A stretch of 64,000 nt of DNA, taken from assembly GCF_024691275.1 (NCBI RefSeq), contig NZ_JAILNU010000065.1:1-64000 (forward strand), read 5' to 3'. The notes under the pieces were generated by a model. The model did not search any database and had not been told where the DNA came from. It saw nothing but the letters and a program-made list of their open reading frames with translations. The stretch is from Ruminococcus sp. GTDB lineage: Bacteria > Bacillota > Clostridia > Oscillospirales > Ruminococcaceae. Shown in pieces: positions 3,306 through 59,600 of the stretch. The position numbers and the translations under genes are program-made. Numbering within the stretch: the stretch's first letter is position 1; every line of letters starts with the position of its first letter.

Positions 3306-4334
<1,029 letters not shown>

Positions 4335-5541: not shown

Positions 5542-5558
5542 ACTTTATTCACCTTTAA

Positions 5559-8340: not shown

Positions 8341-8342
8341 AA

Positions 8343-9815: not shown

Positions 9816-9872
9816 TTAATCTACCACACGCCTCCTAATGAATTAATAGATACAGATTGACATATGAAACTA

Positions 9873-10826: not shown

Positions 10827-10844
10827 TTTCAGTTCTCCTTTTTT

Positions 10845-12113: not shown

Positions 12114-12279
12114 TATATCATTCCTTAACCAAAAGTTTCTCAACTTTCAACATTTTCAGCTCAATTATAAGGGAATAAGTAATTCAATCGATTAAAATAG
12201 ATTTATGAAAGTCGAAACAAAGACAGACACCTTGATTTTCAATTTTATAAAAAAGTAGACTGCTATAACTAATCATCTG

Positions 12280-13128: not shown

Positions 13129-13166
13129 TATCTCACCTCATATTTTATATTGTTAAAAAGGGGTAA

Positions 13167-14105: not shown

Positions 14106-14154
14106 ATTTAATATTCAAACGCTCCTCGCCGATTAATTAAAACCTCATTTATAA

Positions 14155-15126: not shown

Positions 15127-15143
15127 TTATAGTTTCTCCTATA

Positions 15144-24524: not shown

Positions 24525-26093
24525 TTACAGTTTCCAGTAAATATGTATCTCCCTATCGCCATTATCGCCGACCATTCCGATCTCGATATGGTCTATGAAC
24601 TCCTCAGTCAGAGCTCTGTCCAGTTTGTCGAAATGAGTATACTTTTCGATGATCACTTTACGCCCTTCAGAGTTCCTGATATGTTCTCGGCATTCCTTTA
24701 TCTGCTCGGTCATCTCAGCCATACGGGCAGTAATCTCCTGCTCCTCATCGCTCAGGCTTTTACGGAACAGCGAATACTCCTTATCGGAGATGACTCCGTC
24801 GAGCTTGTCCTTATACATATTTAAAAGGCGCTTCTCCGCTGCATCATGACGCTCGTTTAATTTAGCACGATCTGCTTCAAGTCGTTTCAGCTGTTCGGCA
24901 TATATATCACAGACACCTATCTTATCTGACTGACAGTACAGCTCAACTATAGCATTCAGCTCATCAAGTATCTTTTTCTCAAGCACAAGTCCGCTTATGC
25001 TCGAATTGTTTGTACAGTTCATAGCACCTGTCTTATATGAGGCGCATTGCAGACCATAATATTTTTTAGTCCTTTCCTTATTATAATATACATTTCTTTT
25101 CATCGGACGACCGCAGACTGCACATCTAACTTTTCCCGACAAAGGTGAAAGTTCCTGCGAACGCTTTCCCACTCTTGCATGACTGCTGAGCCGTTCCTGT
25201 GTGCGCGACCATGTTTCCGCGTCGATAATCGCCTCATGGGCATCAGGTATACGTATCCAGTCAGCCTGCTCCACCTTTTTCCGCTTCTTGTTCTTATAGC
25301 TGATATGGTGAGACTTTCCCTGCACGAGCGTTCCCGTGTACATCTCGTTGGCAAGTATCCTTGCAACAGTCGACTGTGTCCACAGCCCGCGGCTGCTGCT
25401 CGTGTCGGCATTAACATTGACATATTTCGAGCCTCTCTGCCTTTTGTATTCGGCAGGACTGACTATACCGTCCTCGTTCAGCTTTAGAACTATGCCGCGA
25501 TAGCCTTCGCCGCTGACATACATATCAAATATCAGCCGTACAATCTGTGCAGCTTCTTCATCTATGATAAGATGATGTTTATCATTCGGGTCTATCATAT
25601 ATCCGTATGGCGCAAATGAACCTATGAACTGTCCCTGTTCACGCTTATATGCAAGAGTTCGGCGTATCTTTGACGAGATATCCTTCACATACATCTCATT
25701 ATAAGCGGAAGTGAACAGCCGCATGGTACTGTAGCTCTCGCTTTCGGAGTCAGCATTGTCCGCAACTCCGATAAAACGGATCCCCCATTCAAGGAACTTG
25801 TCATTTATATACTGCTCTACCACAACTGTATCACGGGAAAAACGCGACTGATCCTTGCACAGAACGATGTCTATTTGCCCCGATTCACAGTCGTGCAGAA
25901 GTCGGTTGAACTCGGGACGGCTACGGTCAATGCCGCTGTAGCCGTCATCAGTATATATATCGTATATCTCCCAGCCGCGTTCATGGCAATAATCACGCAG
26001 CATAGCTTTCTGGTTCTGTATACTTGCGCTGTCATCACCTGACTTGTCCCTGTCCTCAATGGACAGGCGGCAGTAGATACCTACTTTCGGCAT
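24525..26093 (-). CDS. large serine recombinase
   Basis: A protein of about 522 aa with the domain order of large serine recombinases: an N-terminal resolvase domain (VGIYCRLSIEDRDKSGDD with the catalytic Ser in RLS; CKDQSRFSRDTV), a recombinase domain (about residues 165-290, ending YKNKKRKK), a zinc ribbon with GKVRCAVCGRPMKRN and a second Cys near residue 350, and a C-terminal coiled coil (about 385-460). The start is the ATG at 26093 with GGGAGGTGAGG just ahead; a GTG nine bases upstream is too close to the ribosome site. Such enzymes integrate and excise mobile elements. No other mobile-element genes are visible beside it. Confidence 0.92.
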   Translation of the reverse strand: MPKVGIYCRLSIEDRDKSGDDSASIQNQKAMLRDYCHERGWEIYDIYTDDGYSGIDRSRPEFNRLLHDCESGQIDIVLCKDQSRFSRDTVVVEQYINDKFLEWGIRFIGVADNADSESESYSTMRLFTSAYNEMYVKDISSKIRRTLAYKREQGQFIGSFAPYGYMIDPNDKHHLIIDEEAAQIVRLIFDMYVSGEGYRGIVLKLNEDGIVSPAEYKRQRGSKYVNVNADTSSSRGLWTQSTVARILANEMYTGTLVQGKSHHISYKNKKRKKVEQADWIRIPDAHEAIIDAETWSRTQERLSSHARVGKRSQELSPLSGKVRCAVCGRPMKRNVYYNKERTKKYYGLQCASYKTGAMNCTNNSSISGLVLEKKILDELNAIVELYCQSDKIGVCDIYAEQLKRLEADRAKLNERHDAAEKRLLNMYKDKLDGVISDKEYSLFRKSLSDEEQEITARMAEMTEQIKECREHIRNSEGRKVIIEKYTHFDKLDRALTEEFIDHIEIGMVGDNGDREIHIYWKL

Positions 26094-26131
26094 CGACCTC
26101 ACCTCCCTTCATTTATATGTAGTTGTCAGTT

Positions 26132-28602: not shown

Positions 28603-30093
28603 ATGAAACACTTATCATTACAGCTTCTGGCACAGACTGTTGCAGACAAACGTAAGGAAATGAAGCTTTCTCAGGCTGTTATATCAGAAAAAACAGGGAT
28701 AAACCGTTCACTTATGTCCCGACTTGAAGCTGCGGACTTCAGTCCTTCTGTGGAACAGCTCCTTGCGCTGTCGGAGGTGCTCGGATTTGAGATCTCGGAC
28801 GTACTGACAGACGATACATCTGCGGTCAATCCCGTCGATCGAAAAAAAATAGCCGTCGCAGGAACAGGCTACGTGGGACTCTCTCTTGCAGTTCTGCTCG
28901 CACAGCACAACGATGTTACTGCTGTGGATATAATTCCCGAAAAGGCAGAAAAGCTTAATAACTGGACAAGTCCCATACAGGACGACTATATCGAAAAGTA
29001 CCTTGCCGAACACGAAGAGCGAGGGCTCTCCCTTAAAGCTACTACCGACGGTGAAACCGCCTACAAAGACGCTGATATCATAATCATAGCAGCTCCTACG
29101 AACTATGATCCCAAGACCAATTTCTTCGACTGCTCGGCTGTTGAAGCCGTCCTTGAACTCATAAAAAAGGCGACCTCCGAACGCAGCAGTAAGCCTGCCA
29201 TTGTTATCAAGTCCACGATACCTGTTGGCTATACAATGCAGGTGAGACAGAAAATGGGCATGGATAATATCATTTTCAGTCCCGAATTCCTGCGCGAATC
29301 AAAGGCGCTCTATGATAATCTCTATCCTTCACGTATAATCGTAGGCTCTGACGAAGAAAACAAACAAGCTGCGGAAACTTTTGCGGTTCTGCTTCAGCAG
29401 GGCGCTATAAAGACGAATATCCCCGTTCTGTTCATGGCTACAACAGAAGCAGAAGCAACAAAGCTCTTTGTCAATACCTACCTTGCCCTGCGCGTATCCT
29501 ACTTCAACGAGCTTGACACCTATGCAGAAGTAAAGGGACTTGATACTGCCAATATTATCAAAGGAGTGTGCCTCGACCCCCGTGTAGGCGATTTCTATAA
29601 CAATCCGTCCTTCGGTTACGGCGGATACTGCCTGCCAAAAGACACAAAACAGCTCCTTGCAAACTATCAGAACGTTCCGCAGAATATGATGTCCGCTATA
29701 GTAGAATCAAACCGCACTCGCAAGGACTTCATTGCTGACCGTGTACTTGAAAAAGCAGGCTATTACAACTACGGCGATAACAACGTATACGACAGCAGCA
29801 TGGAAAAAGAGATCGTCGTAGGAGTTTACAGACTTACTATGAAATCCAACAGCGATAACTTCCGACAGTCATCAATACAGGGCGTAATGAAGCGTATCAA
29901 GGCAAAGGGCGCTACTGTCATAATATATGAGCCTACTCTCGAAAACGGCAGCACTTTCTTCGGCTCACTTGTGGTAAATGACCTGAAAAAATTCAAGAGC
30001 AAATGCAGTTGTATAGTAGCCAACCGCTACGACTCAGCTCTCGACGATGTTGCAGAAAAGGTCTATACACGCGATCTTTTCAAGAGAGACTGA
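28603..30093 (+). CDS. ugd: UDP-glucose 6-dehydrogenase with N-terminal XRE DNA-binding domain
   Basis: A 496-aa fusion. Residues 1-75 are a helix-turn-helix XRE domain ([32 protein letters not shown]... [12 protein letters not shown]). Residues 82-496 are a complete UDP-glucose dehydrogenase of the E. coli Ugd type: Rossmann motif [12 protein letters not shown] (87-98), [24 protein letters not shown], catalytic Cys343 in [13 protein letters not shown], and the C-terminal VYTRDLF. It oxidises UDP-glucose to UDP-glucuronate for surface polymers. AAAGGAGAG precedes the ATG. The link of a DNA-binding domain to a metabolic enzyme suggests a regulator that senses UDP-sugar or NAD state. Confidence 0.93.
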
Positions 30094-37570: not shown

Positions 37571-38692
37571 TTATAAAGTCTTTAAATACTCCATGAAGTT
37601 CTGCTTGTTCTCGAGTGCAGTCGTAGTAGGTCTGCCGAGATCATCACGCGCACCGATAGAACACTTGACTTCGATAAGACTGAGTTCATTTCTGCCCTTT
37701 GCTGCCTCGAGTTCCTTGTCAAGATCATCGAAATTGTCAACGCATACTGCATTCGGATAGCCGCAAGCCTTTGCAATGCCCACAAGGTCTATCTGTGCAG
37801 CAACTGTCGGCATACCGCCAACTGTCTCATGTGCGCCGTTGTTGATGACAACGTGTACGACGTTCTTCGGCTTGTTTGCGCCAAGCACTGCCATGCTGCC
37901 CATATGCATGAGAACAGCTCCGTCGCCGTCTACGCACCATATTCTCTGATCGGGCTTGTTGATAGCAACACCAAGCGCAATAGAAGAAGTATGTCCCATA
38001 GAACCAACTGTCAGGAAGTCATATTTATGGCTCTGACCGTTAGCAACACGGGTCTCGAACAGCTCACGGCTTGGCTTACCTGTTGTGGAAACGATCGGGT
38101 CTTCACCTGTTGCCTTGACGATATGCTGAATTATCTCCTCGCGTATCATCTTGTTGTCATTCTTATATGCAACTTCGGGAGCATTTGTCAGTGCGCCCTT
38201 GCGGACAACTATCGCAACTTGCTTGCCTGTTTCCAGTACCTTGCGGAAATCAGCCATTACAGCAGTAAGCTCGTCCTCGGTAGTATCCTTGCTGAGGATA
38301 AACGTCTTAATATCCATATCCTCCAGCAGCTTGACAGTTACTTCGCCCTGATAGATATGCTGAGGTTCATCGTGAACACCCGGCTCTCCACGCCAACCCA
38401 CAATGAAGATCATAGGTATAGCGTACACCTTGTCATTCAGCAGTGAAGCCACTGGATTGATGATATTGCCTTCGCCTGAATTCTGCATATACACAGCAGG
38501 CACTTTGCCTGTAGCAAGATGATAGCCTGCTGCAAGAGCTGTACAGTTGCCCTCGTTTGCAGCAATTATATGATGCTTCTGGTCTATGCCGTAGGTATCC
38601 ATAAGATAATTACAAAGCGCCTTCAGCTGTGAATCAGGAACACCTGTATAGAAGTCAGCTCCGATAATATTTACAAAACTTTCTACTTTCAT
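37571..38692 (-). CDS. aepY: phosphonopyruvate decarboxylase
   Basis: A protein of about 373 aa, ThDP-dependent, which decarboxylates phosphonopyruvate to phosphonoacetaldehyde and so pulls the unfavourable PEP mutase reaction forward. Visible are the N-terminal YTGVPDSQLKALC and AANEGNCTALAAGYHLATG segments, and the ThDP motif GDGAVLMHMGSMAVLG with INNGAHETVGGMPT. The start at 38692 follows GAGGAG by seven bases; the annotated frame also opens at an upstream TTG. It overlaps or abuts the NTP-transferase gene (4-base overlap region) and is the last gene of the operon. Confidence 0.95.
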   Translation of the reverse strand: MKVESFVNIIGADFYTGVPDSQLKALCNYLMDTYGIDQKHHIIAANEGNCTALAAGYHLATGKVPAVYMQNSGEGNIINPVASLLNDKVYAIPMIFIVGWRGEPGVHDEPQHIYQGEVTVKLLEDMDIKTFILSKDTTEDELTAVMADFRKVLETGKQVAIVVRKGALTNAPEVAYKNDNKMIREEIIQHIVKATGEDPIVSTTGKPSRELFETRVANGQSHKYDFLTVGSMGHTSSIALGVAINKPDQRIWCVDGDGAVLMHMGSMAVLGANKPKNVVHVVINNGAHETVGGMPTVAAQIDLVGIAKACGYPNAVCVDNFDDLDKELEAAKGRNELSLIEVKCSIGARDDLGRPTTTALENKQNFMEYLKTL

Positions 38693-38703
38693 TAGTATAC
38701 TCC

Positions 38704-39414
38704 TCAATTATATTTCGCATAGTCAGGATCAAATTCCTCAAGTTCAGCAACGGAATCTATCTCAACGATCTGATCGGCAGTTACCTCATTTATCACAAGC
38801 TGTAACTTTTCTAACTGCTGGTCAACGATCTCGTCCCAATAGAGCTGTTCATGACCTTCGTGCTGATATGCTTCCTGTACGGCATTTGCTATGATCTCAG
38901 CATCTTTCTGCCTGAAGTAGGATACTCCGACCATATTGTAGGTATCTGTGCCGCACTTGCCCACTCTTGTGATGATCCCATTATCATCAAGATCAAACAC
39001 CCAGTCATCGGAATAGCCCTTTACCATCTTGCCATAGTAGCAGGAGCGGTCAAGCTTTGCCGTGAAGATCGAGGGATCAGAAACGAACAGGTCTGCCTCA
39101 CAAATAAAGCAGTTTGCTGTTTTCATGACTTCGGCAGCCGCAAAAATGGAAGAAATATTGTTTTTCACGGTATATTCCTTGTTCTCGATGATAGAAACAT
39201 TCGGGTATTCTTCTGTCAGATAGCGAAACTGTTCGCCGAGATAGCCCACAACGATATAGATATGCTCAACGCCGCGCTGTTCTAATCCGTCTATAACGGT
39301 GCTTATCATAGAACGTCCATGCGCTTTGACCAAGGGCTTAGGCACTTTCTGAGTCAGCGGAGCCATTCTGGTTCCGAGACCTGCTGCCATTAATATTGCG
39401 ATCTCTTTTTCCAT
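38704..39414 (-). CDS. nucleotidyltransferase, probable CTP:phosphonate cytidylyltransferase (PntC-like)
   Basis: A 236-aa MobA/LicC-type enzyme: LMAAGLGTRMAPLTQKVPKPLVKAHG is the nucleotide-binding signature, and CEADLFVSDP and EQLYWDEIVDQ follow. In phosphonate gene clusters this family (PntC) makes CMP-2-aminoethylphosphonate from CTP and 2-aminoethylphosphonate, by analogy with CMP... choline activation by LicC. The substrate is inferred from its operon partners. The start is the ATG at 39414 with AAGGTG ahead. It lies between the PEP mutase and decarboxylase genes. Confidence 0.85.
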   Translation of the reverse strand: MEKEIAILMAAGLGTRMAPLTQKVPKPLVKAHGRSMISTVIDGLEQRGVEHIYIVVGYLGEQFRYLTEEYPNVSIIENKEYTVKNNISSIFAAAEVMKTANCFICEADLFVSDPSIFTAKLDRSCYYGKMVKGYSDDWVFDLDDNGIITRVGKCGTDTYNMVGVSYFRQKDAEIIANAVQEAYQHEGHEQLYWDEIVDQQLEKLQLVINEVTADQIVEIDSVAELEEFDPDYAKYN

Positions 39415-39423
39415 AGTCACACC

Positions 39424-40719
39424 TTACAGTTCGTCGATCAATGTGATGATATTCTTTATAGACATCAAGCGGTCGTCAACTTCCTTCGCTCTGTGATTTT
39501 TAAGAATATCAATTGCTGTCTGCTGCATTGCAGGGAATGCGCTTCTGGTGAGCTGATTAGCATAAATAACGATATTTACGCCGTGTGCAGCGAGCTCATC
39601 TTCTGTGATGATATTGAAAGATGTAGGTACGACAACTATCGGTGTCTTCTTATCCTTTTCGCGGAATTTATCGCAGAATTCAAGTATCTCAGCAGGATCC
39701 TTCTTACGGCTGTGTATCATGATGCCGTCAGCACCTGCTTCTGCAAAAGCAAAGGCTCTTGCAAGTGCATCGTCCATTCCCTTTTCGAGGATAAGGCTCT
39801 CGATACGTGCGATTATCATGAAATCATCGGTAAGCTGTGCTTCCTTGCCTGCTCTTATCTTGGCGCTCATCTCTTCGATAGTAGCCTGTGTCTGCTCGAC
39901 CTCAGTACCGAAAAGCGAGTTCTTCTTCAGTCCCTTCTTGTCCTCGATGATGATAGCGCTTACGCCCATTCTTTCAAGTGAACGGACAGTATATACGAAA
40001 TGCTCTGTAAGTCCGCCTGTATCGCCGTCAAAGATGATAGGCTTAGTAGTTACTTCCATGATATCATCAATTGTACGGAAGCGCGAAGTCATATCAACAA
40101 GTTCGATGTCAGGCTTGCCCTTTGCTGTAGAATCGCAGAGGGAAGATACCCACATTGCATCAAACTGATCCAGTTTGCCGTCTACCTCAACAACTGTCTT
40201 TTCTGCGATAAGACCTGTCAGACCGCTGTGTGCCTCGATAGTCTTGACAACAGGACACATCTCGATAAGCTGACGAAGTCTTTTTCTGCGGTACTCAGGC
40301 ATAGCAAGCTTTTCTCTGAGCTGCCTGTCGATCTTCTTTACGACAGGATTATATGTGTACGGAACATCAATTATCTCGCCGCCGTATTCAGAGAGCTTCT
40401 TCTCAACATTGGCACGAATAGCTGATGCAGCGCCTTCCTTCCAGTTGTCACCGTGAATAATATAGTCAGGATGAAGTTTTTCGATAACGTCATCATACAT
40501 TGCACTTTCCTGGATCACAACTTCATCTACGCCGTCCAGCTGCTGATAAAGCTTTACTCTATCCTCTAAAGAGATAGTCGGGAACTTGTTAAAACGGATC
40601 AGTGCTTTGTCGCAAAGGGCTCCGACCACGACTCTGCCATACTTTTTGGCATTTTGAATTATATTGATATGCCCCTCGTGAATCACATCGGTGCAAAAAC
40701 AAGTATAAACAGTTTTCAT
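39424..40719 (-). CDS. aepX: PEP phosphomutase with N-terminal nucleotidyltransferase-like domain
   Basis: A 431-aa two-domain protein. Residues 1-130 form a cytidylyltransferase-like domain with the HEGH (14-17) motif. Residues about 150-425 are a PEP mutase of the isocitrate-lyase superfamily: metal-binding FDGDTGG (230-236) and the mutase-specific EDKKGLKKNS (259-268), which distinguishes it from PEP-sugar lyases. It makes the carbon-phosphorus bond of phosphonopyruvate. GGAGG precedes the ATG. This fused form is known in phosphonate clusters; the role of the N-terminal domain is not settled. Confidence 0.95.
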   Translation of the reverse strand: MKTVYTCFCTDVIHEGHINIIQNAKKYGRVVVGALCDKALIRFNKFPTISLEDRVKLYQQLDGVDEVVIQESAMYDDVIEKLHPDYIIHGDNWKEGAASAIRANVEKKLSEYGGEIIDVPYTYNPVVKKIDRQLREKLAMPEYRRKRLRQLIEMCPVVKTIEAHSGLTGLIAEKTVVEVDGKLDQFDAMWVSSLCDSTAKGKPDIELVDMTSRFRTIDDIMEVTTKPIIFDGDTGGLTEHFVYTVRSLERMGVSAIIIEDKKGLKKNSLFGTEVEQTQATIEEMSAKIRAGKEAQLTDDFMIIARIESLILEKGMDDALARAFAFAEAGADGIMIHSRKKDPAEILEFCDKFREKDKKTPIVVVPTSFNIITEDELAAHGVNIVIYANQLTRSAFPAMQQTAIDILKNHRAKEVDDRLMSIKNIITLIDEL

Positions 40720-40731
40720 CTTAATCCTCCA

Positions 40732-41865
40732 TTAATCCTTATATATTACAGGGATCTGAATGTTGTTTTCTTTTAATGCCTCTTTGAATACAACAAAGAA
40801 ATCCTTGATATCCTGCTCGTCGATGGCACCGAGTGCGCAAAGGCGGAATGTATTCGTAGTGGATATCTTACCCGGATAGATAGTGAAGCCTCTGTCATAG
40901 CAATAATCATGAACAGCCTCAAAGCTCCAGTTTGGATCATCAGGATATACAGCAGAAGAAACAAGTCCTGTTCTCCATTCAGGCTTTATCACCTGACGGA
41001 AGCCAAGCTCGTCCAGACCGTCATTTATAGCATTGAATACTCTTGTATGACGAGCCCACTTTGCTTCTTCACCCTCAGCCCAGTATTCCTTCAACGCCTG
41101 AATAGTGGAATAGATCGTCTGAACAGGAGGAGTGAAGTGCATCTCGCCTGTACGCTCAAAGAAGTCGTACTGAAGCCAGAGATTGCAGTAGTAGGAGCGC
41201 TTCGGGTATTCCTTTGATTTCTCGATGATATCCTTTCTGCCTACAACAAACGAAAGACCTGTGAATGCCATCAGACCCTTCTGAGCGGAAGCCATGCAGA
41301 AATCAATATTGTCCTCATGAACATTGATAGGACGCATTGCATAAGTCGATGTAGTATCAACAGTGAAAACTGCACCGTATTTATGTGCCAGAGCACCGAT
41401 CTCACGAATAGGATTCAGGATACCTGTTCCTGTTTCGTTATGAGTAGTATGAACAAGTGCGATATCGGGATTATTTTTCAGCGTCTCCTCCACAACAGCA
41501 AGGTCAGGACGCTGATCTACAGGAAATTGCAGATCAATGTGAGGCAAGCCGTAAAACTGGCATATCTCTACAGCTCTTGTACTGTAAGCACCATTATTTA
41601 CAACAAGCACCTTCTTTCCCTCGGGAAGAAGCGAATTAATGCATACGTCAATATTTATAGTACCGCTGCCGCAGAAAAGTACAGATGTGTACTCATCAAG
41701 ATCACCATGAACGATCTTGACAAGATCCTCACGCAGTCCCTTCATAAGTCCGCCAAACTCCTTTTCACGCGGACAGATATCAGGTACGACCTGTGCATAC
41801 TTTACAGTATCAGTCGTGGTTGAAGGACCCGGGTTCAAAAGGATATTTCTTTTAATAGACTCCAT
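40732..41865 (-). CDS. phnW: 2-aminoethylphosphonate-pyruvate transaminase
   Basis: A PLP enzyme of about 377 aa of the class V family. Motifs: NILLNPGPSTTT at the N terminus, LFCGSGTINIDV, FTVDTTSTYAMRP with the PLP Asp and ASAQKGLMAFTG with the Schiff-base lysine (about Lys196). It interconverts phosphonoacetaldehyde plus alanine with 2-aminoethylphosphonate plus pyruvate; here, with PEP mutase and decarboxylase, it runs in the biosynthetic direction. The start at 41865 follows GGAG; an upstream codon at 41898 would overlap the previous gene. Confidence 0.93.
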   Translation of the reverse strand: MESIKRNILLNPGPSTTTDTVKYAQVVPDICPREKEFGGLMKGLREDLVKIVHGDLDEYTSVLFCGSGTINIDVCINSLLPEGKKVLVVNNGAYSTRAVEICQFYGLPHIDLQFPVDQRPDLAVVEETLKNNPDIALVHTTHNETGTGILNPIREIGALAHKYGAVFTVDTTSTYAMRPINVHEDNIDFCMASAQKGLMAFTGLSFVVGRKDIIEKSKEYPKRSYYCNLWLQYDFFERTGEMHFTPPVQTIYSTIQALKEYWAEGEEAKWARHTRVFNAINDGLDELGFRQVIKPEWRTGLVSSAVYPDDPNWSFEAVHDYCYDRGFTIYPGKISTTNTFRLCALGAIDEQDIKDFFVVFKEALKENNIQIPVIYKD

Positions 41866-41894
41866 TTTAATACAATCTCCTCTAATATATATTT

Positions 41895-43001
41895 TCAATC
41901 AGTTTCACTGTGATATAAGGCATATATATCTTCAACTGAAGTGATTCCAAACTCTGCTAATTTCAGTGAGTTCATCTCGCCGCTCACTTTTCTGTACCAA
42001 TCCATAGTATCCTTAACATTTGGCACATCTACGCCAACTATCTTTGCAAATTCCTCGATAATAGCAAGTCCGTAAGGGAAATCAGCCGTGAAATACCTTG
42101 ACTGAAGATCAGGTATCCAGCCGTTCGGAGTTTCGATCATCGGAGAAGTCAGATTATGCAGGCTTTTAATAGTGCTTATCTTCTGTGTCATAGCCTGTAC
42201 GGTTTCGCTTTCATAATGTATCTTCAAAGAGCGTACATAGGAAAGATCCATTTTATCAAGCTTATGGCATATCTCCTGAAGTTCCTGATCGCAGGCAAGC
42301 AGGAGTTCCGACGATCTGTCGCTCCAGTCGCCGTAGAACAAAGGATTTCTTTCGTAAAATACGCCTTCTTTGTAATCCTCGAACAGTGTCTTCAGTCTTG
42401 TTGTATGAAGGATAGGATTGCTTGGTGTAAGAGTAACGTTCAGATAGTTAGGGAGCGGGATACAAGGGATATCCCATACATACTCAAAGAACGGGCTCCA
42501 CTTTTCTGCCTGATCGGCAGGAATGGAAGCAAGGAACAGCTCACTGCGCAAGCCTTCGCAGCGTACTCTCTTTCCATACTGCTCAAGTCTCGCAACAGAA
42601 GGTACTCTCTGTAAACCGAGAAGTATCGCGCCAGCCTGTATACATTTCCTGAATGCGAACTCCGCACCGCCTGTACCGGGAATAACGCAAATGCACATTC
42701 CTTTTTCGATGAATGGCAGCATATCCTCTGCAAGTTCGGGCAGCTTAAAGGCAGGATATGTGACTAAAACGATCTGACAGCCGCTTATTGCTTCTTTAAG
42801 ATCGTCAGTAACGAGACTTATATTTCCGTGCGTTACTTCGTCGAACTCATTTACTATTTCAAGCTCCTTGCTGAATTTATCGGCTTTTGAAGAAAACATA
42901 CTGACTTCATAGCCCTTTGAGGCACAGATACACGCAAACTGTGTACCGATATTTCCGCCGCCGATAACCGCAGCTTTACTAACCTTATTACAGAACTGCA
43001 T
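41895..43001 (-). CDS. opine/octopine dehydrogenase-like protein in the phosphonate operon
   Basis: A 368-aa NAD(P)-binding protein. The N terminus (AVIGGGNIGTQFACICASKG) is a Rossmann nucleotide site; the C-terminal half matches the octopine/nopaline dehydrogenase domain, with SNPILHTTRL (the Asn-Pro...His active-site motif) and FPYGLAIIEEFAKIVGV near residue 320. This family reductively joins an amine to a 2-oxo acid. It is the first gene after the operon promoter and abuts the transaminase, so 2-aminoethylphosphonate, an amine, is a natural candidate substrate, giving an N-carboxyalkyl phosphonate. That reaction is a hypothesis. GGGAGAA precedes the ATG. Confidence 0.8.
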   Translation of the reverse strand: MQFCNKVSKAAVIGGGNIGTQFACICASKGYEVSMFSSKADKFSKELEIVNEFDEVTHGNISLVTDDLKEAISGCQIVLVTYPAFKLPELAEDMLPFIEKGMCICVIPGTGGAEFAFRKCIQAGAILLGLQRVPSVARLEQYGKRVRCEGLRSELFLASIPADQAEKWSPFFEYVWDIPCIPLPNYLNVTLTPSNPILHTTRLKTLFEDYKEGVFYERNPLFYGDWSDRSSELLLACDQELQEICHKLDKMDLSYVRSLKIHYESETVQAMTQKISTIKSLHNLTSPMIETPNGWIPDLQSRYFTADFPYGLAIIEEFAKIVGVDVPNVKDTMDWYRKVSGEMNSLKLAEFGITSVEDIYALYHSETD

Positions 43002-43227: not shown

Positions 43228-43256
43228 AGTATAGCAAAAACCATACAATAAGTCAA
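43228..43256 (-). promoter_or_regulatory. promoter of the phosphonate operon
   Basis: TTGACT and TATACT on the minus strand with 17-base spacing. It is the only strong minus-strand promoter upstream of the five genes. Confidence 0.75.
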
Positions 43257-47682: not shown

Positions 47683-48699
47683 ATGAAAAAACATAAATCA
47701 GACAACATATCAGCCTTTTCTGATGAAGATATAAGAAATATCCGCAGGTCAGCCATTATAAAGTTCGCTATAGTCTGCATTTTCATTGTTATCATGATCG
47801 TCTTTAATACAATAAGCTGGTTCACAATGAACACCGACGTAAAAGGCTCGGGAATGTCCATAGCCGCAAGAGGTCCCGATTATGAGATACTGGTGCTGGA
47901 AAATGGTTCTAACGGTCAATACTATGCCGATTATCATCGTTTGGTGGCGGATTCCTCCGCCGTAGTCTGGCAAATGGTTGATGCCAATAATATGGGAAAT
48001 TATAATGATACCTCAGAAAACCCGGGCATTAAACCCGGCTCTTATGGAATGGTCTCATTTTATGTAAAACCGTTGGTCAACTCTGTTGATCTTAGCTTTA
48101 ACTTTGAAATATTCGGGTATAAGTATGATAAAGATGCTGCAAATTCAGCAGATAAGATGAAACTGCTCGATTCCGATGAGTCGCCTGCTGTATTCCTTAA
48201 CGGTCATATTCTTCTATTTGAAGAAAGAACAGGTACATCTGAGGATAATTTCATTTACAGCAAACCTATCCTCTCAAATAAAGATATGCAGAGAGTTATA
48301 AGCCAAAAAACATACACGAAGAAGGCTAATGATGCTCCTACGCAAGTTGATATATACTGGATCTGGCCTACAACTCTAAGTAAGGTTATTGACGCAAGAG
48401 ATTGCACAAAAATATCTGTTACCGAAGCGCCTTTTACAAACAAGACTCCATACAGCGAATCATCAGGCACAAATGCTTATAACGAAGTCGTTGACAATAT
48501 CAGGACTTTTCCCGATTATTACTGTAAGGGCGTGAACCGTCCTGCTAATACGAGTGCGATGCTTTCTGAGGCAACAATAGTTACAGATTATGATAAATAC
48601 GGAGATTACTACGATCAGGCAGATAATGATATTGGAATGGGTGTCGATTTTATCCTGTTAAAATTATCTGTTTCGCAAGTGTCTTCCTCCGGGGAGTGA
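47683..48699 (+). CDS. membrane-anchored surface protein, TasA-like N terminus
   Basis: A 338-aa protein with a short charged N terminus (about 25 residues), a transmembrane helix (about 27-46) and an extracellular body. Immediately after the helix comes NTISWFTMNTDVKG, which recalls the S-x-A-W-F-T segment at the start of TasA/camelysin-like fibre proteins that follow a SipW-processed signal. The rest is beta-rich with no recognised domain. It is the first gene of the operon; the next gene starts four bases past its stop region. Function unknown; a fibre subunit or scaffold for the giant protein is an inference. Confidence 0.6.
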   Translation: MKKHKSDNISAFSDEDIRNIRRSAIIKFAIVCIFIVIMIVFNTISWFTMNTDVKGSGMSIAARGPDYEILVLENGSNGQYYADYHRLVADSSAVVWQMVDANNMGNYNDTSENPGIKPGSYGMVSFYVKPLVNSVDLSFNFEIFGYKYDKDAANSADKMKLLDSDESPAVFLNGHILLFEERTGTSEDNFIYSKPILSNKDMQRVISQKTYTKKANDAPTQVDIYWIWPTTLSKVIDARDCTKISVTEAPFTNKTPYSESSGTNAYNEVVDNIRTFPDYYCKGVNRPANTSAMLSEATIVTDYDKYGDYYDQADNDIGMGVDFILLKLSVSQVSSSGE

Positions 48700-48704
48700 T
48701 ACAA

Positions 48705-49508
48705 GTGAATAAAATTCTCGAAAAATTCAGAAAAATGAAAACAAGTCAGAAAATAGAGTTCTTACTTGCATCACTTTGTACTATCTCCTTTTTAATAGGA
48801 ATGCCTGTCTGGGCTTGGTTTTCAGGCGAGAACAAAATGGAGACTATGACAAAGATAAAAGAACCCGAAAATCTCGACATAAGAGCCGGTCACTATCATT
48901 CTATTATAAATTTTGAACTCAGCGATATCAGTATTGAAGATATGTATGACACAGCAAATAATGTCTCAAAACCTGAATATCGTGTATTCAGCGTAAGTGC
49001 AGGTGACTATAGGATACCATATAAGCTACAGCTTGCACATACAACAAATATCCCGTTCAAGTATTCAATATATAAAGCAACAGAGGTCGATTCAGCCGGA
49101 ACAAATACTGTTGCATATAAACCAATTTATAAGGATCCTGATGACCCTACAACAAACGGCAGAAACTACTATTATCAGATCGGTGAAGAAGTCACTCTTT
49201 CAGCTCTTAACGGAGATGAAACAAACGAAGTATATTACGGCAGACAAATCGCAAAAAATGGAGATGCCTGCTATATCAAGACCTATGAGGACGAAAACGA
49301 TGAACCTGAAATATATGCAGTTCCCGTGTATCTGCAATCGGAAACTATAACGCCGACCGAGAAGGGCGAGGAAGCACATGATTACTTCATTCTGAAAATA
49401 GAGTGGGATCATGAAAACTCAGCAACGAATTTTACCAACTGGAATAAGGCGGAAAACAACAAAGAAACAGATATTATCTATATCACAGCAAGCCGAAGCA
49501 CAGGCTGA
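48705..49508 (+). CDS. membrane-anchored surface protein, second TasA-like subunit
   Basis: About 267 aa. The start is taken at the GTG at 48705, with GGGGAG eight bases upstream; another GTG at 48696 overlaps the previous stop. A hydrophobic helix (about residues 18-40) is followed directly by VWAWFSGENKME, again like the W-F-S/T start of TasA-type mature proteins, and a beta-rich ectodomain of about 220 residues. Not recognised beyond that. It overlaps or abuts both neighbours, which indicates co-translation. Confidence 0.6.
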   Translation: MNKILEKFRKMKTSQKIEFLLASLCTISFLIGMPVWAWFSGENKMETMTKIKEPENLDIRAGHYHSIINFELSDISIEDMYDTANNVSKPEYRVFSVSAGDYRIPYKLQLAHTTNIPFKYSIYKATEVDSAGTNTVAYKPIYKDPDDPTTNGRNYYYQIGEEVTLSALNGDETNEVYYGRQIAKNGDACYIKTYEDENDEPEIYAVPVYLQSETITPTEKGEEAHDYFILKIEWDHENSATNFTNWNKAENNKETDIIYITASRSTG

Positions 49509-49527
49509 TGAAAACGAGGTGAAGATC

Positions 49528-50619
49528 ATGGAAAAAATACTGAAAACGTTAAGAAAGCACTGGACGAGAGTTTGGCTGATAGCCATTCTGTTGATCTCAG
49601 GCGGCGTTTATGTGACCTATTCGATCTATACAGAGGTATCATCTGTAAAACGCGTTGTTTCGACACAGGCTTCACCTGTTGATATGTTCTCATCAAACTG
49701 TATGCGCCCAGATATTTCGAGCAGACGGCTTTCTTCGGCTGAATACAGCATTACAGTATGTAATTTCGATCAGGACAAGCCGACTATATATAACCCTTCA
49801 ACTATCAGCTACACACTTCACGCTGAACTTCAAGTGGGAGAAAATCATACTAATCTGGCAACATATCTCGCTGCTCTGGATCAAACAAATGCTGAGCAGA
49901 AAGCCAAATATGACAGCTACTTAGGAAAAGCTGAATTATACTTTATATACAAAACAGAGGACGATGCAACAGGAGCAGTTGCAAGATCAGCGAACGGTTT
50001 TACTCCCAACAACGGCTTTACAGTAAATCTGGATTCTGATACTCTTGCACCTCAGAAGTCTTCTGTCGATATGTATAAAGTTGAAATAGACAGTTCTTCA
50101 ATCAATGATCCCGACACTGACATTTTTGTCCATGTTTGGGCAGTTCCGACACCTCCGACCACACTCAGGACTATCGAAACAAGATTGTATGGTGCGGCAT
50201 CTTCATCAAATACAGCCACATGGACAGGAACATTTATCGAAACAGACTGTGCTGCCGTTGATTATGACTTCTATAACTATGTTATTACAGGCAGCGGCGA
50301 GGGAACGGTCGATATCTTATGGGATCCAAGCAAATTCAATATAAACGAATTTTTCTTCAACGAGTCCCTTTCAGGCAATACATTTGTCGGCAGGAATACT
50401 CCCACAGAGATCGCAGGATCTGATACGAAGTACGGAAGCGAAAAATATGACGGAAAATATGTCGGCTGGAGCAAGATAACTCTCAGCGTCGGAGCTGTCA
50501 ACTCAAAAAACAGATATGAACTACAGCTATATAAGACTGCATCGGACTCTCTTACGGGAGTTTCCTATACGGGTGACAATGCAGCGACAAAATATATCGA
50601 CTGCTTCTTCAACACATAA
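49528..50619 (+). CDS. membrane-anchored surface protein, third operon subunit
   Basis: About 363 aa from the ATG at 49528 (GAGGTGAAG upstream); the frame is open to 49411 but that part overlaps the previous gene. A single N-terminal helix (about 12-32, VWLIAILLISGGVYVTYSIY) precedes an extracellular beta-rich body with Thr/Ser-rich segments. Unlike the first two genes it lacks a W-F-T/S motif after the helix. No domain was recognised. It sits directly before the giant gene. Confidence 0.6.
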   Translation: MEKILKTLRKHWTRVWLIAILLISGGVYVTYSIYTEVSSVKRVVSTQASPVDMFSSNCMRPDISSRRLSSAEYSITVCNFDQDKPTIYNPSTISYTLHAELQVGENHTNLATYLAALDQTNAEQKAKYDSYLGKAELYFIYKTEDDATGAVARSANGFTPNNGFTVNLDSDTLAPQKSSVDMYKVEIDSSSINDPDTDIFVHVWAVPTPPTTLRTIETRLYGAASSSNTATWTGTFIETDCAAVDYDFYNYVITGSGEGTVDILWDPSKFNINEFFFNESLSGNTFVGRNTPTEIAGSDTKYGSEKYDGKYVGWSKITLSVGAVNSKNRYELQLYKTASDSLTGVSYTGDNAATKYIDCFFNT

Positions 50620-50682: not shown

Positions 50683-53600
50683 ATGAAATTATCTTTCAAT
50701 AAAAAAGCAAAGAAAAGGATAATAAGTCTCACAACTGCCTTTGCTATAATAACTAATGCTTTTCCGTTAGGAGAACTGTCAGGTATAATATCGCCTTTGA
50801 TCTCTCTGAAAGCAAAAGCAGCAGAATTCCTGCCTGCCGATGAAATTTCTGCGGACGGTCTTGCACATTTCAAAGCATTAACATTTGGAGCTTCTCCGAC
50901 TTATGCTCCGACTACGGGTGCAGAAGAATTTGAAAACACCGCTAATAGCTATGTTGCATATAATTCAGCTGCAAATAATTATACTATTTCTTTTGGTGAC
51001 ACATCCCTGTTTATAGATTACTGCTGGCATTATAGCAATACAGACGGCTTTGCAGCCTCACACTGCAATGATACTCTGATAATCGGTTTCGTCGGCGGCA
51101 GCGAATTATCGGACGATTTCGTCGGATTGGGTACTTCCGATTCTCCGTTCGGCGGAATGCTAAGATTTGGTGGCGAGAACTATCAGTTCAACGCTCACAG
51201 AGCTTTGTTCAATTATGTATATGATTCGGTAGAACTTCTGGTCGATGCAACAGGAGCTGCGGAAAATCTTGTTATCAAAAGGCTGTCAAATGTTGGCGCA
51301 AGCGAGAGCTCCCCTCTTCTGGCAGACCATGTACGCCATGATACAAGAGAAGGAAAATCGTCGGCTCAATGGCAGATCGAATTGAATACTTCAAACGCTA
51401 AGACCTATTCGGGTGTTATTGGAGAAACTGAAAGTAATACCGTTGTAAAACTGAATTATACGAACAATTCATCTGCTGATATCGCATCTTCTTCTGATGC
51501 AGGTGAGATCTGCGGAACGATGCAAAGCGGCTCATCAATAGAACTGACCTATTCCGCAGCAAGCGGTCATGCCATTACTTCATCAGGCGGCAACGCAGGC
51601 GGTCTTGTGGGTACTATGAATGGCTCATCGACCTTGACTGTCAAGGCAATGCCGTCCGTATCACTTAATGCTGAGTCAGCATCTGATTATGCAGGCGGTC
51701 TTGTAGGCGAACTGACTTCGGAGGCAGCGATAGATAATCAGACAGGTTCACGAATTCCTGTCAGCGGAAGTATTAAAGGCTTCAGCGGTGCGGGTGGACT
51801 GTTCGGACACTATACCAACTATACGACAGAGTTTGATCTGGCAAATTACAATAATACTGCTACCGCAGACGGAACGTATTGCGGCGGTGTTTTCGGTGTG
51901 CTTGAAAATATCAAAGATGCCTCCGCAGCATCTTTATCTCTGACAATAAAAAATACAGGCAACGCAGGAACACTCATGGCAAATTCGGGAACAACGGGTG
52001 CTAAAAGCGGATATTTCGGCGGAATCGCAGGAAAATACACCACTAATGCACTTGCGAACAGTCTGATCCTTGATAATTTGACACTGACAGCAAATGCAAA
52101 TGCTGCTTACAGTGCTTTCGGCGGAGCAATAGGAACTGTTGACTCTGCTGCTTATGTGAAGACTGTCGGTACAATAAGCGTAACTGCAAAAGGCACGACT
52201 TCATCAGCTTATTTCGGCGGTCTTGTTGGTGCAGCATCGGCAGGTAACGGCGTATTTGTTGATCTTGACAGTTTTACTTTAAATACAGGCAATGAGCAAT
52301 TTAAGGGCGGCGGTCTTGTCGGTCTGTTTAACAGGGGCGTACTGCGACTTAGCGGAACGACTACCATGACCGGCGCAAAGCCTGCAAGCGCAGCTAATTG
52401 CGGACAGCTTGTCGGCAATAATGACAACGTTCTTGTTTACGCCCCCACGTCCGGCAACTGGACATTTGTACGTTCAAGCGGTGCTAAAACAGACGACCTC
52501 GGTACATGGGGCGAGGTGGTTCGCGGAATAGATGACAGCAGTTCATCAAATACTGTTTATTTCAACAGCACAGCCCACACAGCAACAATTGCTGCCGCAA
52601 AGACTTCTATGGGCAGTACCGACGACTTCATCAGAACAGCTCTTAATATTCAGCTCAATCAGGGCAGTGGCTATGACTGCTTGCTGTTTACTTCTGGTTC
52701 TGGCAATACAAGAGCAACGCTCCTTGCGAGTAATTCCCTGTCCTTAAGTAATGATATTTCTCTTGTCGGAACGGGCATTACAGGTTTCATGCGCGATGGC
52801 GGCGCTGTTTCGGATATCGGAACATTTACAGGAACATTCGACGGAAACGATCACTCGATAACCCTTGCTATAGGCGAAAAGTATGGCAGCGGAGTTACCT
52901 CTGCTTCTACTGCCGAGGGTGTTGGTCAGATATACCGTCATCAGCATAATGGTCTGTTCGCAGTTCTCGCAGGAACGGTAAAGGAACTTACTGTTACAGG
53001 TACGATCAATGTAAACAACTGCGTTGATGGAATGAATATCGGCGGAATAGCTTCCCGCAACGGCGGCAATGTCACGCTGACAAAAGTCATTGCAAATGAA
53101 ACAGTAAACTATAATGAAAGCTCCAAAGTTACAGGAACGGAAGCTGCGGGAAAGAATATCGGCGGTTATATCGGCTTCGTGGGAACAAACGGCACTATTA
53201 CGATAAACGGTGTCAGCTCTATCGGTGCGACCTTCAATCTCAGCGGCTCCCATGAAAGCTGGAATGTTTACGGCGGTGCTATCGGAAAGATCACAGCAGG
53301 ATCATTCACGGTCAATATAGGAACAGCTGGCGATAATAATAACAAGCTGACCGACAGCCTGACCACTTCCATAACAGGCATAACTGCCGTTGGTTCAAAC
53401 AGCGACGGCGGAGGTCTTATCGGTCATATTATAAATGTAGGAAGTTACTCCGCTCGTCAGGTGAATATCAACAACCTTGCAATCAGCGGCTGTACGATAG
53501 GAAATGCTGCAAGCACAAATGGCGGCGGCTTTCTCGGCTATTCATGGCTGAACACCACCACTAACATAAACGGCGTTACAGCAAGCGGTACTATCAATAA

Positions 53601-56600
53601 TTCGGCTGCGGCAAATGTCGGCGTTATGCTTTACAGCTCAACAGGAAAAATGGTCGTCAATTCACTTGCTATCAACGGACTTACTATGTCCTCGGGCGGC
53701 GGTGCTTCACTTGGCATGATCGTAAACAGAGCTTTTGCCGGCGAAACTAAAGACGGCAAAACAACTTACAGCGGAGGTCTGTACCTCGATGTTTTGAACA
53801 GCGGTTATTCGCTGACCTGTGCAGCTCCTTCCTCTGCTGTCGGAGTTTTTGACGAAATCGCCGCTTATTCCGCAATGAATCCAAGCGAAGTTATCAAGGG
53901 CGGTGCCGGTGTTATCTCGATCAATATGAACGCAACGAGAAATGGCACACTCGTTAACATCAATCAAACAGGCACTTATCAGAACAGATTGAAAACAGGT
54001 GATGCCTGCGCAAATTCCAATTCAAGATACTACTATAATATTGATAAAATGAGTTCCTCAGACGGCGGACAAAACCTTGTATTGTGGAGCTTGAGCAAGT
54101 ATGCATATTCGGGTATCAAAAGCGAATTCGGCACATCACTTAATACGACACTCAGCGGAACAGCTGATCTGACAGGACTGTCATTCTATCCCCTTGCAAG
54201 TGCAAATGAAAACTATACAATAGGAAATCTGACTATTACCTTTGATTATAACGGTGTAAGAGGAACTGCCGAAGGTCTGTTCGGAACTGCTAATCCTACA
54301 GACAGCTATGTCCGCGATCCTGCTGCGGCAAACCAGCACTATCTTATGCATTCGGGATTGTTTATAGATCAGCCGAGCGGAAAGTCCCTGACTGTAACGG
54401 GAACACTGTCTCTTGGCGGTACCTTCATGGAGGACAGCAGTCATCTGGGTGTTATCATAAGCGGAACGATGAAGGGTACTTTCCTCTGTAATACAGGTTC
54501 GATCATACTTGACGGTATAAAGCCTATGAACGGTGCTTCTGCTTACACAAGCGGCTATCTGCTGATAAATAATATTCGCAGAACAGACGATCTGGCTGCT
54601 CCGCCTTCTGTTACAATAAAGAATTTAAGCAATACAGATAAATATTCCTCTACTACAGGTTCAGCATATTCTGCATCAGGAACAACAGATAATGTTGCCA
54701 ATAGCCTTATCGGAAGTGCTTCAGGTAAAGGTATTACAATCATCTTCTCAAAAATAAAACTCGACGGCAGAGATAAAACTAAGTCTGATGCAAATTTAAA
54801 TGCTCAGGAGCTTTACAATGCTTACAAAACATACAATTCTATATTCTCAGCCTCTACATTGCTGGCAGAGATCAATACCGATCAAAGTGCAAAGCTCGAA
54901 TACAATTTCACAAAATCCGATGACTGGGGAACTAACACTCCACGAGAAGTAACTTATGGTGCGGAGATCAAGAACTCTTTGGAGTATGTTGATGAAGAAC
55001 AGAAATACTCCCCTGAATCAGGAGCATCGAATGGCGAATATGTTAATCCTGTTAATAGTACAGCCAGATCAGAGGTATACGATTTTGCGGCAGGTTTTCT
55101 GCCTTACGTCAAAACACCTTACAGTGATACTACAGATGCAAACGGCTGTTTTAAGCGTGAGCTGAAAGTCAATGTTCAGTCCGTATCTCTCAGCAGCGGC
55201 TGCGGAACTTATAACGATCCCTATTTGATAAGTGATCCGAAGGTCTTTGAAGCTGTAGCAAAGTTTATTGCAAGCGGTGATACTAATGACCTGAAAGAAG
55301 TAGTTCTGCCAAAAACTCCTGACAGTGATGACATTATATCAGGAAATCGCTGGCATAGCGGAACAGATTACCACGCAGCTTTCAAGGCAAGCGGAGATGA
55401 TTATGTTAAGGGTTCTTACACATGGAATGGAAATAATGTCCGTAAGTATCTTGCAAGTGCATATTATATGATCACTGATGATATTGAGCTAACCAATAGT
55501 TATGTGGGGCTTGGTCTGGCAACAGAAAATTCAAATGTTACAGCAAATGGTGACTATGCTTTTCGCGGCGTTATCGTTGGTGCTGATGTTCCTGACAGCG
55601 ATGCCGAAAACGCTCCTACACACAAGGCAAGGATAACAAATGGAAGTGCGAATCCTTTCATAAACGTTTCCAACGGCAGCGTTGTCAAAGACTTAAATAT
55701 AACTGTGTCCAGTAATATAACGCTAAGTCAGGCAAACGCCGCTTACAACAATGCGTTCTTCGGATATTATCATTTGTGTAAGTATTATGGCGGTATCTTC
55801 GGCGAAGTTATGGGCGGAGATAACATAATAGACAACAGCTACGTAACATATAGCAATTCAACCATTACACTTAGCGGCAGTAAAGGAACTATCGTACCTG
55901 TTGGCGGATATGTGGGCGTTGTCGTGTTCGGAGGAGTAATATTCAAGAATATGACAGCTACTACCAGTGCAACTTCGACAGAATTGAAGGTCAATAACTC
56001 AGGACTAAACGTAAAATACACAGGAAAATCTGAAAATCTTGCTGATAATGACAAGCAAGCGGATTGGGCTGCTATTTATGTTAATCCCATTGTAGGCAGA
56101 GTTATCAATGGCTATGCAGTCAATGAGACCACTCGATTCTCTACATCAGAAAATGGAAAATACCATAATGATGGAGGTTTTAATTCAGGAACAGCAAGAA
56201 CAGGCGCTGAACTCCACACACTGAAAAACGGTACAAAGCATTATTCCATAGCAGACATCAACAAGAATGAAACCAATAAACTCGATGTCAGCGCAGTGCC
56301 TTCAAGCACATCTTCCGACGGAACGATAAATATCCCGAATTCTCAGGCTTTCTTTATTCTTTCACTTATCACGCAGTCCTGTGCCGGAACGTCTCAGGGT
56401 GCGAATACAGGTTATATCAATTCCCTATCTTATGGCACAAATTCTACGGTCTACGGTATGAGCCGTAATGCCGACTATACAAATGTTGGAACCGCAACCG
56501 AGAACAGTGATCCTGATTTTGCACTTGCAGGCAATGATACTACATCAAATTACGCAACTCCGTACATTATTGACCGCTACTGCACTAACCATAATGCACG

Positions 56601-59600
56601 CTGCGTTACAAGTACAAAAGGATATTATGACATCAACCTCAATGCAAAGACGATCTACTCTGTAGATTCATATACCTATCAACTTCCTGATAGTTTCAGA
56701 GGACTTGGTAGTGTGGGGTATTATGATAATGCAGATAGCAATTACTATCAAAACCGATACAGTGTAAAAGTTGACTTGTTTGATGGAAAGGGCTGTATTA
56801 TTGATGAGGATATTTATTTAAACAGATACAGAACAGATAATTATTTCTCTATACTTCACAAAGGAAATGCCGCAACCCAATCAGTTCAATCAGAAGTTGC
56901 AACCTATAATGTTAATCAAGAAAATCTTAATCATGGCATAGGACTGTTTGATAGCATAATAACCAGAAATGCAAATAGCAATATTTCCAATTTTACAATA
57001 AGTGGTTCTGTAAATACTGAAATATATAAAAATGGCTACAATACCTCATCACAAGAAGACACTATTCCTGCAAATAGCGAAGCAAAATTCCTTAGCGTAG
57101 GCGGCGTTGTCGGTGAATGCAGAGGAGGATTATATTTACGTTTTTATCAAATATCATTAAACAATCTGTCTGTATGTGGTTCGTGTGTTGTGGGAGGTAT
57201 TTTAGGATATTCAGGAATCAATAGTACTTCTATAAATGTTACTCTCCGTCAATGCTCTGCTGAAGGATTATCTGTTAAGATGGTTTCTTCTTCCGATCAG
57301 GATAATGTTGAAAAATCAAGAAATGCAATTGGCGGTTTAATTGGTAAAATCTTTGGTGGTAAAGCTATCATTTATGGAACATCATTAGAAGACAGTAATA
57401 ATGATTTGAATAACTATTCTACAGTTACAATCAAAGCATTTGAATTCCAAAATCCTTCAGCAACATACAGAGCAGCTGCAGGCGGTCTTGTTGGCTTTGC
57501 CGGTGACGGCTGTCGTGTGTATGATATGAAATTACAATCATCACCTAATACAAATGTCACTATCGGCGGAAATGGAGTACGCTTTGTAGGCGGCTTAGTT
57601 GGTGCTATGCAGTCGCAGGCCAGTGGTGGTAAGACCGGTGTTGCAGTATTTAAAAACAGTACTGTTAAAGAAATAAACCTCAATGGAAGTTTCGTAGGTG
57701 GCTTTTATGGCGGTAAATGGGATTCACACTGGACAACGTATTCAATTACTTTGGATAACTGTAAACTGTTAGGTTCATCAACTGCACATAATACAATTTA
57801 TGCTAATAATGTGTTTAACACAGGATATGCAGGCGGATTTGTAGGTAAACTATATCCTTACACAAATAAGGATAACAACAAGGTCACACACAATGTTTTG
57901 ATAAGAGACTGTTCTATTTCAAATTATGACATCACAGCAGGAACAGCATCTCAAAGTTATGTAGGAGGTTTTATTGGTAATGCAAGCTCTGATAATGATA
58001 GTGTAACCTGCTATATTCATGATAGTTCAGTTGAAAACTGCCTCATTGGTGCAAGCGGTAATTATGCCGGTGGTATTATTGGTAAGATTGAGCAAAAGAA
58101 CGATAACCAATTATTGGGATATAACATCAAGCTCAACACAATATCATCAAACGCAGGCACAAAGATGGGAGCATGGATTGGTTATGCGCCTGATGATACA
58201 TCGTCCAAGAAAACAAGTATTCAATTTGCTGGTCTTGCGATCTATGGTACAGGTTTTACAAAAAATGTAGGAAATAGTGCTACTCTTGGTACAGCCTCCT
58301 TCGTATTTGCCGACTATACGGGCAAATGTAAAGGCACAGAAACGACTGATCCTGTAACAAATGAGAGCACGATCAATTATCCCACAGATATTTCAGGCTT
58401 TAACTACAGTTCTTCTACACACGTTGATATGCCTAAATATCCTTATATAAATATCAACCCTCAGTCCGATATAGGTGCTAATGAGACCATCTCCGGCGAC
58501 GGTGCAGTATTGTATGGCAGCAGCGTAACCGGATTCAACGGAAAAACAGCTGATAAAACTATGGCAGCTAAGATATATGCTGATCTTAGCGACACATCCA
58601 ATACAAGACGCTATACTACTTTCGATAAAACAGTTGTGATCTATGACAATAAAACAATTGAAGACTATCTTAAAGTTGCACCCGGTACCGATGGAGATAA
58701 GATCTCAACTTACAGGACCGAAAAAGGCAGTCTTCCGACAGGAGTCGCAGACTTTGCGGTAGTAGTAATCGCTAATCAGACAACTGATGAGACGACCAAT
58801 CTCATAAACAGCTATATTCAGCTTGTCACAAATACATCAACAGATTATACAGCTTCAAGCGACTATTATTCTATAAACATACAGACCTGTAAGTTTAACG
58901 GAAATGATTTTGTAATAGACACATCGGCTGCAAATCACGGTTTAACATTTTCAGGCGGCAAATTTGCTTTGAATGGCAGTTATGCTGATTCAAATAATAA
59001 TATTGATACATTTACTCTTGTTGATGTTCAGTTCAAAGACCCGTTTGATAAGTCAAAGATCGCATATCACCTCTATGTTCCTGTGTACACCATAAAGCAG
59101 ATCGAGGTCGATTTCCGTTCAGCGGTCAGAACAGGCACTTATTCTGTTAAGAATAATTCAGAAACAAATGATTATTCAGGTCTTATGACAGCTAACGGCA
59201 AGCACGTTGACAGCCTTAATACATGGATCACACAGTATATTCGTTATTCATATAAGGCAGAGGATATAAATATGCTGCTCAGCAGCAATGATTTAAAATG
59301 GAACAACAATAAATGGGTCGTTTTTAAAACAGATGCGACCAGTACATCATTCAACAGACTTCCTCAGAATACATATATGATCCTTGTTGATCCAAATGGA
59401 AATGCTGACCGAGAGTACTATGTTGAAAACCTCAATTCTTTCGACACTTATTATGATTCCGCAAACAGTAATAAGGAAGGCTGGATCATAGACCTGAGTA
59501 AATTTAAAGACGGCAGCAATAATTCGTTTACAGTCAGCAATTTCAATGCTCTTATCGCAAGAAGTATTATAGAAAGCACAAACGGAGAACTCCTGTATAC

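Follow-up and report, generated by a model that had tools for sequence, protein, structure and literature searches.

Why should an operon for phosphonate biosynthesis begin with a homologue of octopine dehydrogenase? The question is raised by five intact minus-strand reading frames on a Ruminococcus sp. contig (NZ_JAILNU010000065.1, assembly GCF_024691275.1), which on inspection of the open reading frames form one operon running from position 43001 to position 37571 of the window, that is, of the whole 64,000-nucleotide stretch analysed here. We hold with moderate confidence that the first enzyme, a member of the opine dehydrogenase family (ODH), most likely serves in the reductive N-carboxyalkylation of 2-aminoethylphosphonate (AEP), or of AEP activated with cytidine monophosphate (CMP-AEP), for the tailoring of the cell surface. 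This proposal builds on the gene content of the operon, on the family, fold and catalytic residues of ODH and on its repeated pairing with two pathways to CMP-aminoalkyl groups.

A phosphonate operon headed by ODH

In the order of transcription, the operon encodes ODH (368 residues, 41895..43001), an AEP transaminase of the PhnW/AepZ type (40732..41868 from an ATG; TIGR03301, 451.6 bits, cut-off 360.8), a cytidylyltransferase-like domain (PF01467) fused to phosphoenolpyruvate (PEP) mutase (39424..40719; TIGR02320, 409.5 bits, cut-off 319.55), a LicC/PntC-like nucleotidyltransferase (38704..39420; PF12804) and phosphonopyruvate decarboxylase (Ppd, 37571..38692 from an ATG; TIGR03297, 470 bits, cut-off 312.5). 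The gaps between the genes measure 26, 12, 3 and 11 bp with the start codons chosen. At its N-terminus, the PEP mutase protein has a domain that matches 5x3d, which is annotated as phosphoenolpyruvate phosphomutase and which we take to be the cytidylyltransferase domain of Fom1. The nucleotidyltransferase, a predicted former of CMP-AEP, has CTP:phosphocholine cytidylyltransferase as its top solved relative (1jyk, 2e-32) and also matches 6pd1 (3e-9), presumably a PntC. A preliminary description of the locus had read a PEP mutase signature, a decarboxylase, a transaminase and a nucleotidyltransferase from these genes. That reading is borne out by the 1jyk match, by the curated NCBIfam cut-offs, which PEP mutase, PhnW and Ppd alike exceed, and by the PEP mutase motif EDKX5NS (as defined in a passage of PMC6697681), present in the fusion protein as EDKKGLKKNS.

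According to the same source, in the portions available, CMP activation of AEP and its part in surface tailoring have been described, and the Pnt pathway with its PntC likewise comprises a PEP mutase-cytidylyltransferase fusion, AEP genes and a LicC-like nucleotidyltransferase (PMC6697681). The operon studied here differs in being led by an ODH homologue, the words 'opine' and 'dehydrogenase' being absent from the main text of that paper as available. It also differs in lacking, within the window, the nearby LicD-like transferase of the Pnt pathway; the two LicD genes of this genome lie on other contigs.

In the scheme that we propose, PEP mutase, Ppd and PhnW would yield AEP, which a cytidylyltransferase would convert into CMP-AEP. 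ODH would use NAD(P)H to join the amine of AEP, either free or CMP-activated, to a 2-oxo acid (pyruvate being the likeliest) and so form N-(1-carboxyalkyl)-AEP. Transfer of the group onto a surface glycan would fall to a LicD-type transferase, or one like it, encoded elsewhere in the genome; the five-gene stretch holds no such transferase gene and no glycosyltransferase. Which amine and which oxo acid ODH uses, in which order the steps follow and that the product goes to the surface are inferred. In most other hosts, the same ODH subfamily would do the equivalent job on a group of the ethanolamine-phosphate type.

Partner pathways of related ODHs

Scanning genome contigs for relatives turned up 77 loci, of which 76 have a scorable ODH; their flanks were examined up to 10 kb. 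Phosphonate genes lie near ODH in six of the 76 (L002, L011, L016, L036, L047 and L067), within 1.5 kb in five of these and at 4-7 kb in L067; L011 shows just a nucleotidyltransferase and PhnW before the contig ends. The co-occurrence is therefore not limited to this genome, and the six loci sit on scattered branches of the ODH tree. Much commoner is a second partner, a LicC-like cytidylyltransferase with a CobD-like decarboxylase, which was found within 1.5 kb of ODH in 43 of the 76 loci and is usually a single fused protein of about 600 residues. The fusion is on the ODH strand in 41 loci, including L041, whose contig carries only the CobD-like half; L053 has it on the strand opposite to ODH, and in L075 a nucleotidyltransferase and a protein of the class I/II aminotransferase fold are separate genes. 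An ODH specific to phosphonates is thus rejected, although AEP as the amine in this operon is still the best reading and has gained comparative support.

In the fusion of L028, the nucleotidyltransferase half matches 6pd1 and LicC 1jyk, and the pyridoxal-phosphate (PLP) half is nearest to threonine-phosphate decarboxylase (TIGR01140) at a score below the cut-off (177.6 versus 290.55 bits). The fusion is expected to make cytidine diphosphate (CDP)-ethanolamine from O-phosphoserine, or CDP-aminopropanol from O-phosphothreonine. Its make-up resembles that of FrbH in FR-900098 biosynthesis, in which a cytidylyltransferase and a PLP decarboxylase reportedly form one protein acting on a phosphonate. 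By contrast, no PEP mutase above cut-off was seen in 32 of the 42 genomes in which ODH lies beside the fusion, whole or in parts. We found no locus with both pathways near one ODH (0/76, within flanks up to 10 kb). In the genome of the window, neither the LicC-like/CobD-like fusion was found nor a PF01633 kinase, the family through which alone a kinase route was sought. A strict exclusivity of the two pathways at the genome level was also considered and rejected, since 10 of the 42 fusion-linked genomes do encode an above-cutoff PEP mutase.

Among the other 27 loci, the fusion is encoded elsewhere in the genome in four (nearly full length in L021, L029 and L068, residues 1-431 of 602 in L031) and an above-cutoff PEP mutase in ten (L007, L008, L009, L013, L031, L033, L046, L057, L063 and L076), so that 13 of the 27 have one or the other; six further genomes, in which the match was confined to the PLP half (27-31% identity), were left out of the fusion count. 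Nine loci with a PEP mutase that is not beside ODH were checked: eight also have PhnW and Ppd, and one short contig has Ppd only. One or other of the two pathways, nearby or in the genome, accompanies ODH in 62 of the 76 loci (L011 counted through PhnW). Neither the fusion nor PEP mutase was found in the genomes of one divergent clade, whose ODHs are longer (408-432 residues; L061, L064, L065, L066, L069, L071 and L073), and L003, L014, L017 and L018, likewise without either partner, may represent incomplete assemblies.

On a tree of 74 ODH sequences, seven of which are phosphonate-linked including that of the window, the phosphonate-linked label requires six changes, at least four of them forced by well-supported branches, and phosphonate-linked ODHs are no more clustered than shuffled labels. 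The changes may be gains or losses, and ODH has therefore switched partner pathways several times. Both partner pathways have in common a CMP-activated aminoalkyl phosphate or phosphonate; this group is therefore the likely amine substrate, which ODH most likely N-carboxyalkylates for a surface glycan.

In a sample of 391 genomes drawn evenly from the class, PEP mutase (above its curated cut-off) was found in 32, ODH (E-value of at most 1e-30) in 8 and the fusion (E-value of at most 1e-60) in 11. PEP mutase or the fusion is present in seven of the eight ODH genomes versus 41 of 391 overall (hypergeometric 6e-7), and in six of seven when the genome of the window is left out (5e-6). The test assumes independent genomes, an assumption that does not fully hold: two of the eight ODH genomes share a genus. 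The sample also overlaps the locus set, since L047 comes from G513 and L008 from G281. ODH and PEP mutase share a locus in only two of the eight ODH genomes (that of the window and G513), and ODH and the fusion are adjacent in all three sample genomes having both.

The neighbourhoods also bear on the alternative that ODH acts on another amine of surface polysaccharides (that of an amino sugar, say, or of lysine or another amino acid) and owes its place in such loci to shared transport and transferases alone. N-(1-carboxyethyl)lysine occurs in O-antigens, and many neighbours of ODH are indeed general polysaccharide genes, including glycosyltransferases, flippases, CDP-glycerol phosphotransferase-like genes and, in 25 loci, LicD. 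Nevertheless, the commonest neighbour family is the fusion, present in 37 of 72 clustered loci and at position -1 or +1 in 33 of these 37, whereas the largest identified glycosyltransferase cluster reaches 13 of 72 at scattered positions. The operon of the window consists of phosphonate genes only, and the class-wide association of ODH with PEP mutase or the fusion argues in the same direction, so that we regard this alternative as unlikely. In five of the six related phosphonate loci, a same-strand LicD gene lies within 10 kb, and the surroundings of ODH point to surface decoration rather than to a free secreted opine.

Fold, catalytic residues and substrate pocket of ODH

By domain, fold and catalytic residues, ODH is a member of the opine dehydrogenase family, for which the reductive condensation itself is predicted. 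Its match to PF02317 (Octopine_DH; 95.7 bits, cut-off 30, E 3.5e-27) confirms the earlier assignment of the first gene as an octopine/nopaline dehydrogenase homologue, and the N-terminal Rossmann domain PF01210 was found at 36.3 bits (cut-off 23.1). Among solved structures it is closest in sequence to octopine dehydrogenase (3.6e-23), followed by N-(1-D-carboxylethyl)-L-norvaline dehydrogenase (8.5e-11); unlike these two, ODH sits in phosphonate or CDP-aminoalcohol-type loci. When the AlphaFold model (mean pLDDT 90.5) was aligned with VIA-align, the first 12 rows were opine dehydrogenases, among them octopine, yersinopine, pseudopaline and staphylopine dehydrogenases, and ketopantoate reductases followed behind, the lowest-ranked opine dehydrogenase standing 4.7 Z units above the best of them. 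H199, R302 and D307, the last of which we take to be the Asp of a His-Asp dyad, are kept in every one of the 67 aligned family members, a set from which the divergent clade was left out. In the sequence alignment, H199 and R302 correspond to His212 and Arg324 of octopine dehydrogenase, described in part of PMC2924402 as catalytic and NADH-sensing, respectively.

Two basic residues, R132 and K274, are likewise invariant in the 67 members. Octopine dehydrogenase has Thr and Ala at the aligned positions, neither residue is present in 14 remoter homologues that keep the catalytic H, R and D, and K274 is kept in all eight further distinct close relatives from other genomes. Both adjoin, in the alignment, the positions of Glu142 and Trp278, which octopine dehydrogenase uses to bind its substrate's guanidinium group (PMC2924402, in part). 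This pocket of the Pecten maximus enzyme is not kept in ODH, in which Glu142 aligns with Q131 and Trp278 stands opposite a gap; ODH has the subfamily-specific R132 and K274 instead. Such residues would fit an anionic head group.

They also bear on the possibility that ODH turns a free amino acid into an ordinary opine that serves redox balance or metal binding, with its place in the operon being incidental. The fold is that of enzymes such as octopine and staphylopine dehydrogenases, the divergent seven-locus clade is linked to neither pathway, and of the three clade members with annotated neighbours, L064 lies by a histidine kinase and an aldehyde dehydrogenase, and L061 and L071 by a radical SAM protein. 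It is exactly in this unlinked clade, however, that K274 and H262, kept in 67/67 and 65/67 members outside it, are replaced by A and F in 7/7 sequences, R132 being retained. Together with the repeated pairing of ODH with CMP-aminoalkyl pathways, this makes an ordinary opine rather improbable. That ODH reduces phosphonoacetaldehyde to 2-hydroxyethylphosphonate, or acts on another phosphonate intermediate with no C-N bond formed, would suit a dehydrogenase of the NAD(P)-dependent type placed among phosphonate genes and a fold shared with ketopantoate reductases, but was set aside as very improbable because PhnW already uses the aldehyde, ODH is commoner beside the decarboxylase-type route, where no aldehyde is expected, and the structural ranking favours opine dehydrogenases.

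Several observations nevertheless weigh against N-carboxyalkylation of AEP or CMP-AEP as the role of ODH. Phosphonate-linked loci are few (the six of 76), and for 14 of the 76 loci, seven of them the divergent clade, neither partner was found in the genome. In the class sample, ODH is in the same locus in 2 of 32 PEP-mutase genomes; it occurs at all in only 4 of these 32 and in 3 of 11 fusion genomes and is therefore optional to both pathways. Co-occurrence at the genome level is in part background, since PEP mutase is also present in 10 of the 42 genomes that have ODH next to the fusion, whole or in parts. Regarding the enzyme, the pocket positions rest on an alignment of about 22% identity rather than on measured geometry. 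Among the eight further distinct relatives from other genomes, the catalytic His is kept in seven (N in L080) and R132 in seven (K in L083), and Gln at the Glu142 position was rejected as diagnostic since the residue there varies (Q, E or D). Finally, PntC discriminates sterically against phosphocholine (PMC6697681, in part), and a substituted AEP may therefore be a poor substrate unless ODH acts after activation.

Proposed surface chemistry and genomic surroundings

A close chemical precedent is N-[(R)-1-carboxyethyl]ethanolamine phosphate (R-Cet-EtnP), named in a figure legend of PMC9630907 for Klebsiella capsules and Proteus O-polysaccharides. It is the phosphate counterpart of the predicted group, being ethanolamine phosphate that carries an N-(1-carboxyethyl) substituent, but it has a C-O-P bond and is named for Gram-negative polysaccharides, whereas the group predicted here has a C-P bond. 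Among the matches listed in the open-access literature, we found no paper naming an enzyme that makes R-Cet-EtnP and, in titles and the starts of abstracts, no description of N-(1-carboxyalkyl)-AEP or its enzyme, in agreement with the preliminary description, which knew of no report of this compound. No open-access paper holds both phosphonate biosynthesis and opine dehydrogenase as terms. AEP and opine are co-mentioned in one, a Klebsiella marker paper, as far as its text was available; the accessible part of PMC6801904 contains pyruvate-acetal references and one AEP glycolipid.

Tentatively, and at somewhat less than even odds, we suggest a widespread surface chemistry in which the ODH subfamily N-carboxyalkylates CMP-activated aminoethyl phosphate or phosphonate and so turns a zwitterionic tag acidic in gut and rumen Firmicutes, with N-(1-carboxyalkyl)-AEP being made in this genome and on scattered branches. 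If true, opine dehydrogenases would gain a role in surface tailoring, and the polysaccharide component N-(1-carboxyethyl)ethanolamine phosphate would have a candidate enzyme type, with its phosphonate twin predicted. Gut and rumen bacteria would then carry a phosphatase-resistant charged group on their surface.

Upstream of ODH, a promoter-like site (TTGACT-17-TATACT, 43228..43256, minus strand) agrees with 10 of 12 consensus positions and has a TG ahead of the second hexamer; it is a consensus match only and no evidence of function, the region having 21 such sites against a shuffle mean of 12.2. Near related ODHs, a nucleotidyltransferase is fused to a choline/ethanolamine kinase (L050:12010-13788) and a winged-helix-like domain to a LicC-like nucleotidyltransferase (L012:4192-5085). 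At L018:12300-15020, a protein of 906 residues bearing a 60KD_IMP (YidC-type) domain is encoded next to a CDP-glycerol phosphotransferase-like gene, a pair that recurs near ODH in several loci.

Elsewhere in the window, a long surface-polysaccharide locus was recognised by eye at 904-19752 (minus strand), presumably comprising dTDP-rhamnose-type genes, glycosyltransferases, a flippase and an initiating sugar transferase. At the edge of this region lies a 525-residue frame (24525-26102, minus strand) that we take to resemble a large serine recombinase. A helix-turn-helix domain (PF01381) is fused N-terminally to a UDP-glucose/GDP-mannose dehydrogenase (PF03721, PF00984, PF03720) at 28603-30093 (plus strand). 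Three smaller frames (47683-50619) precede a single frame of 3469 residues (50683-61092, plus strand) with, by eye, a signal-like start and many GG-rich repeats.

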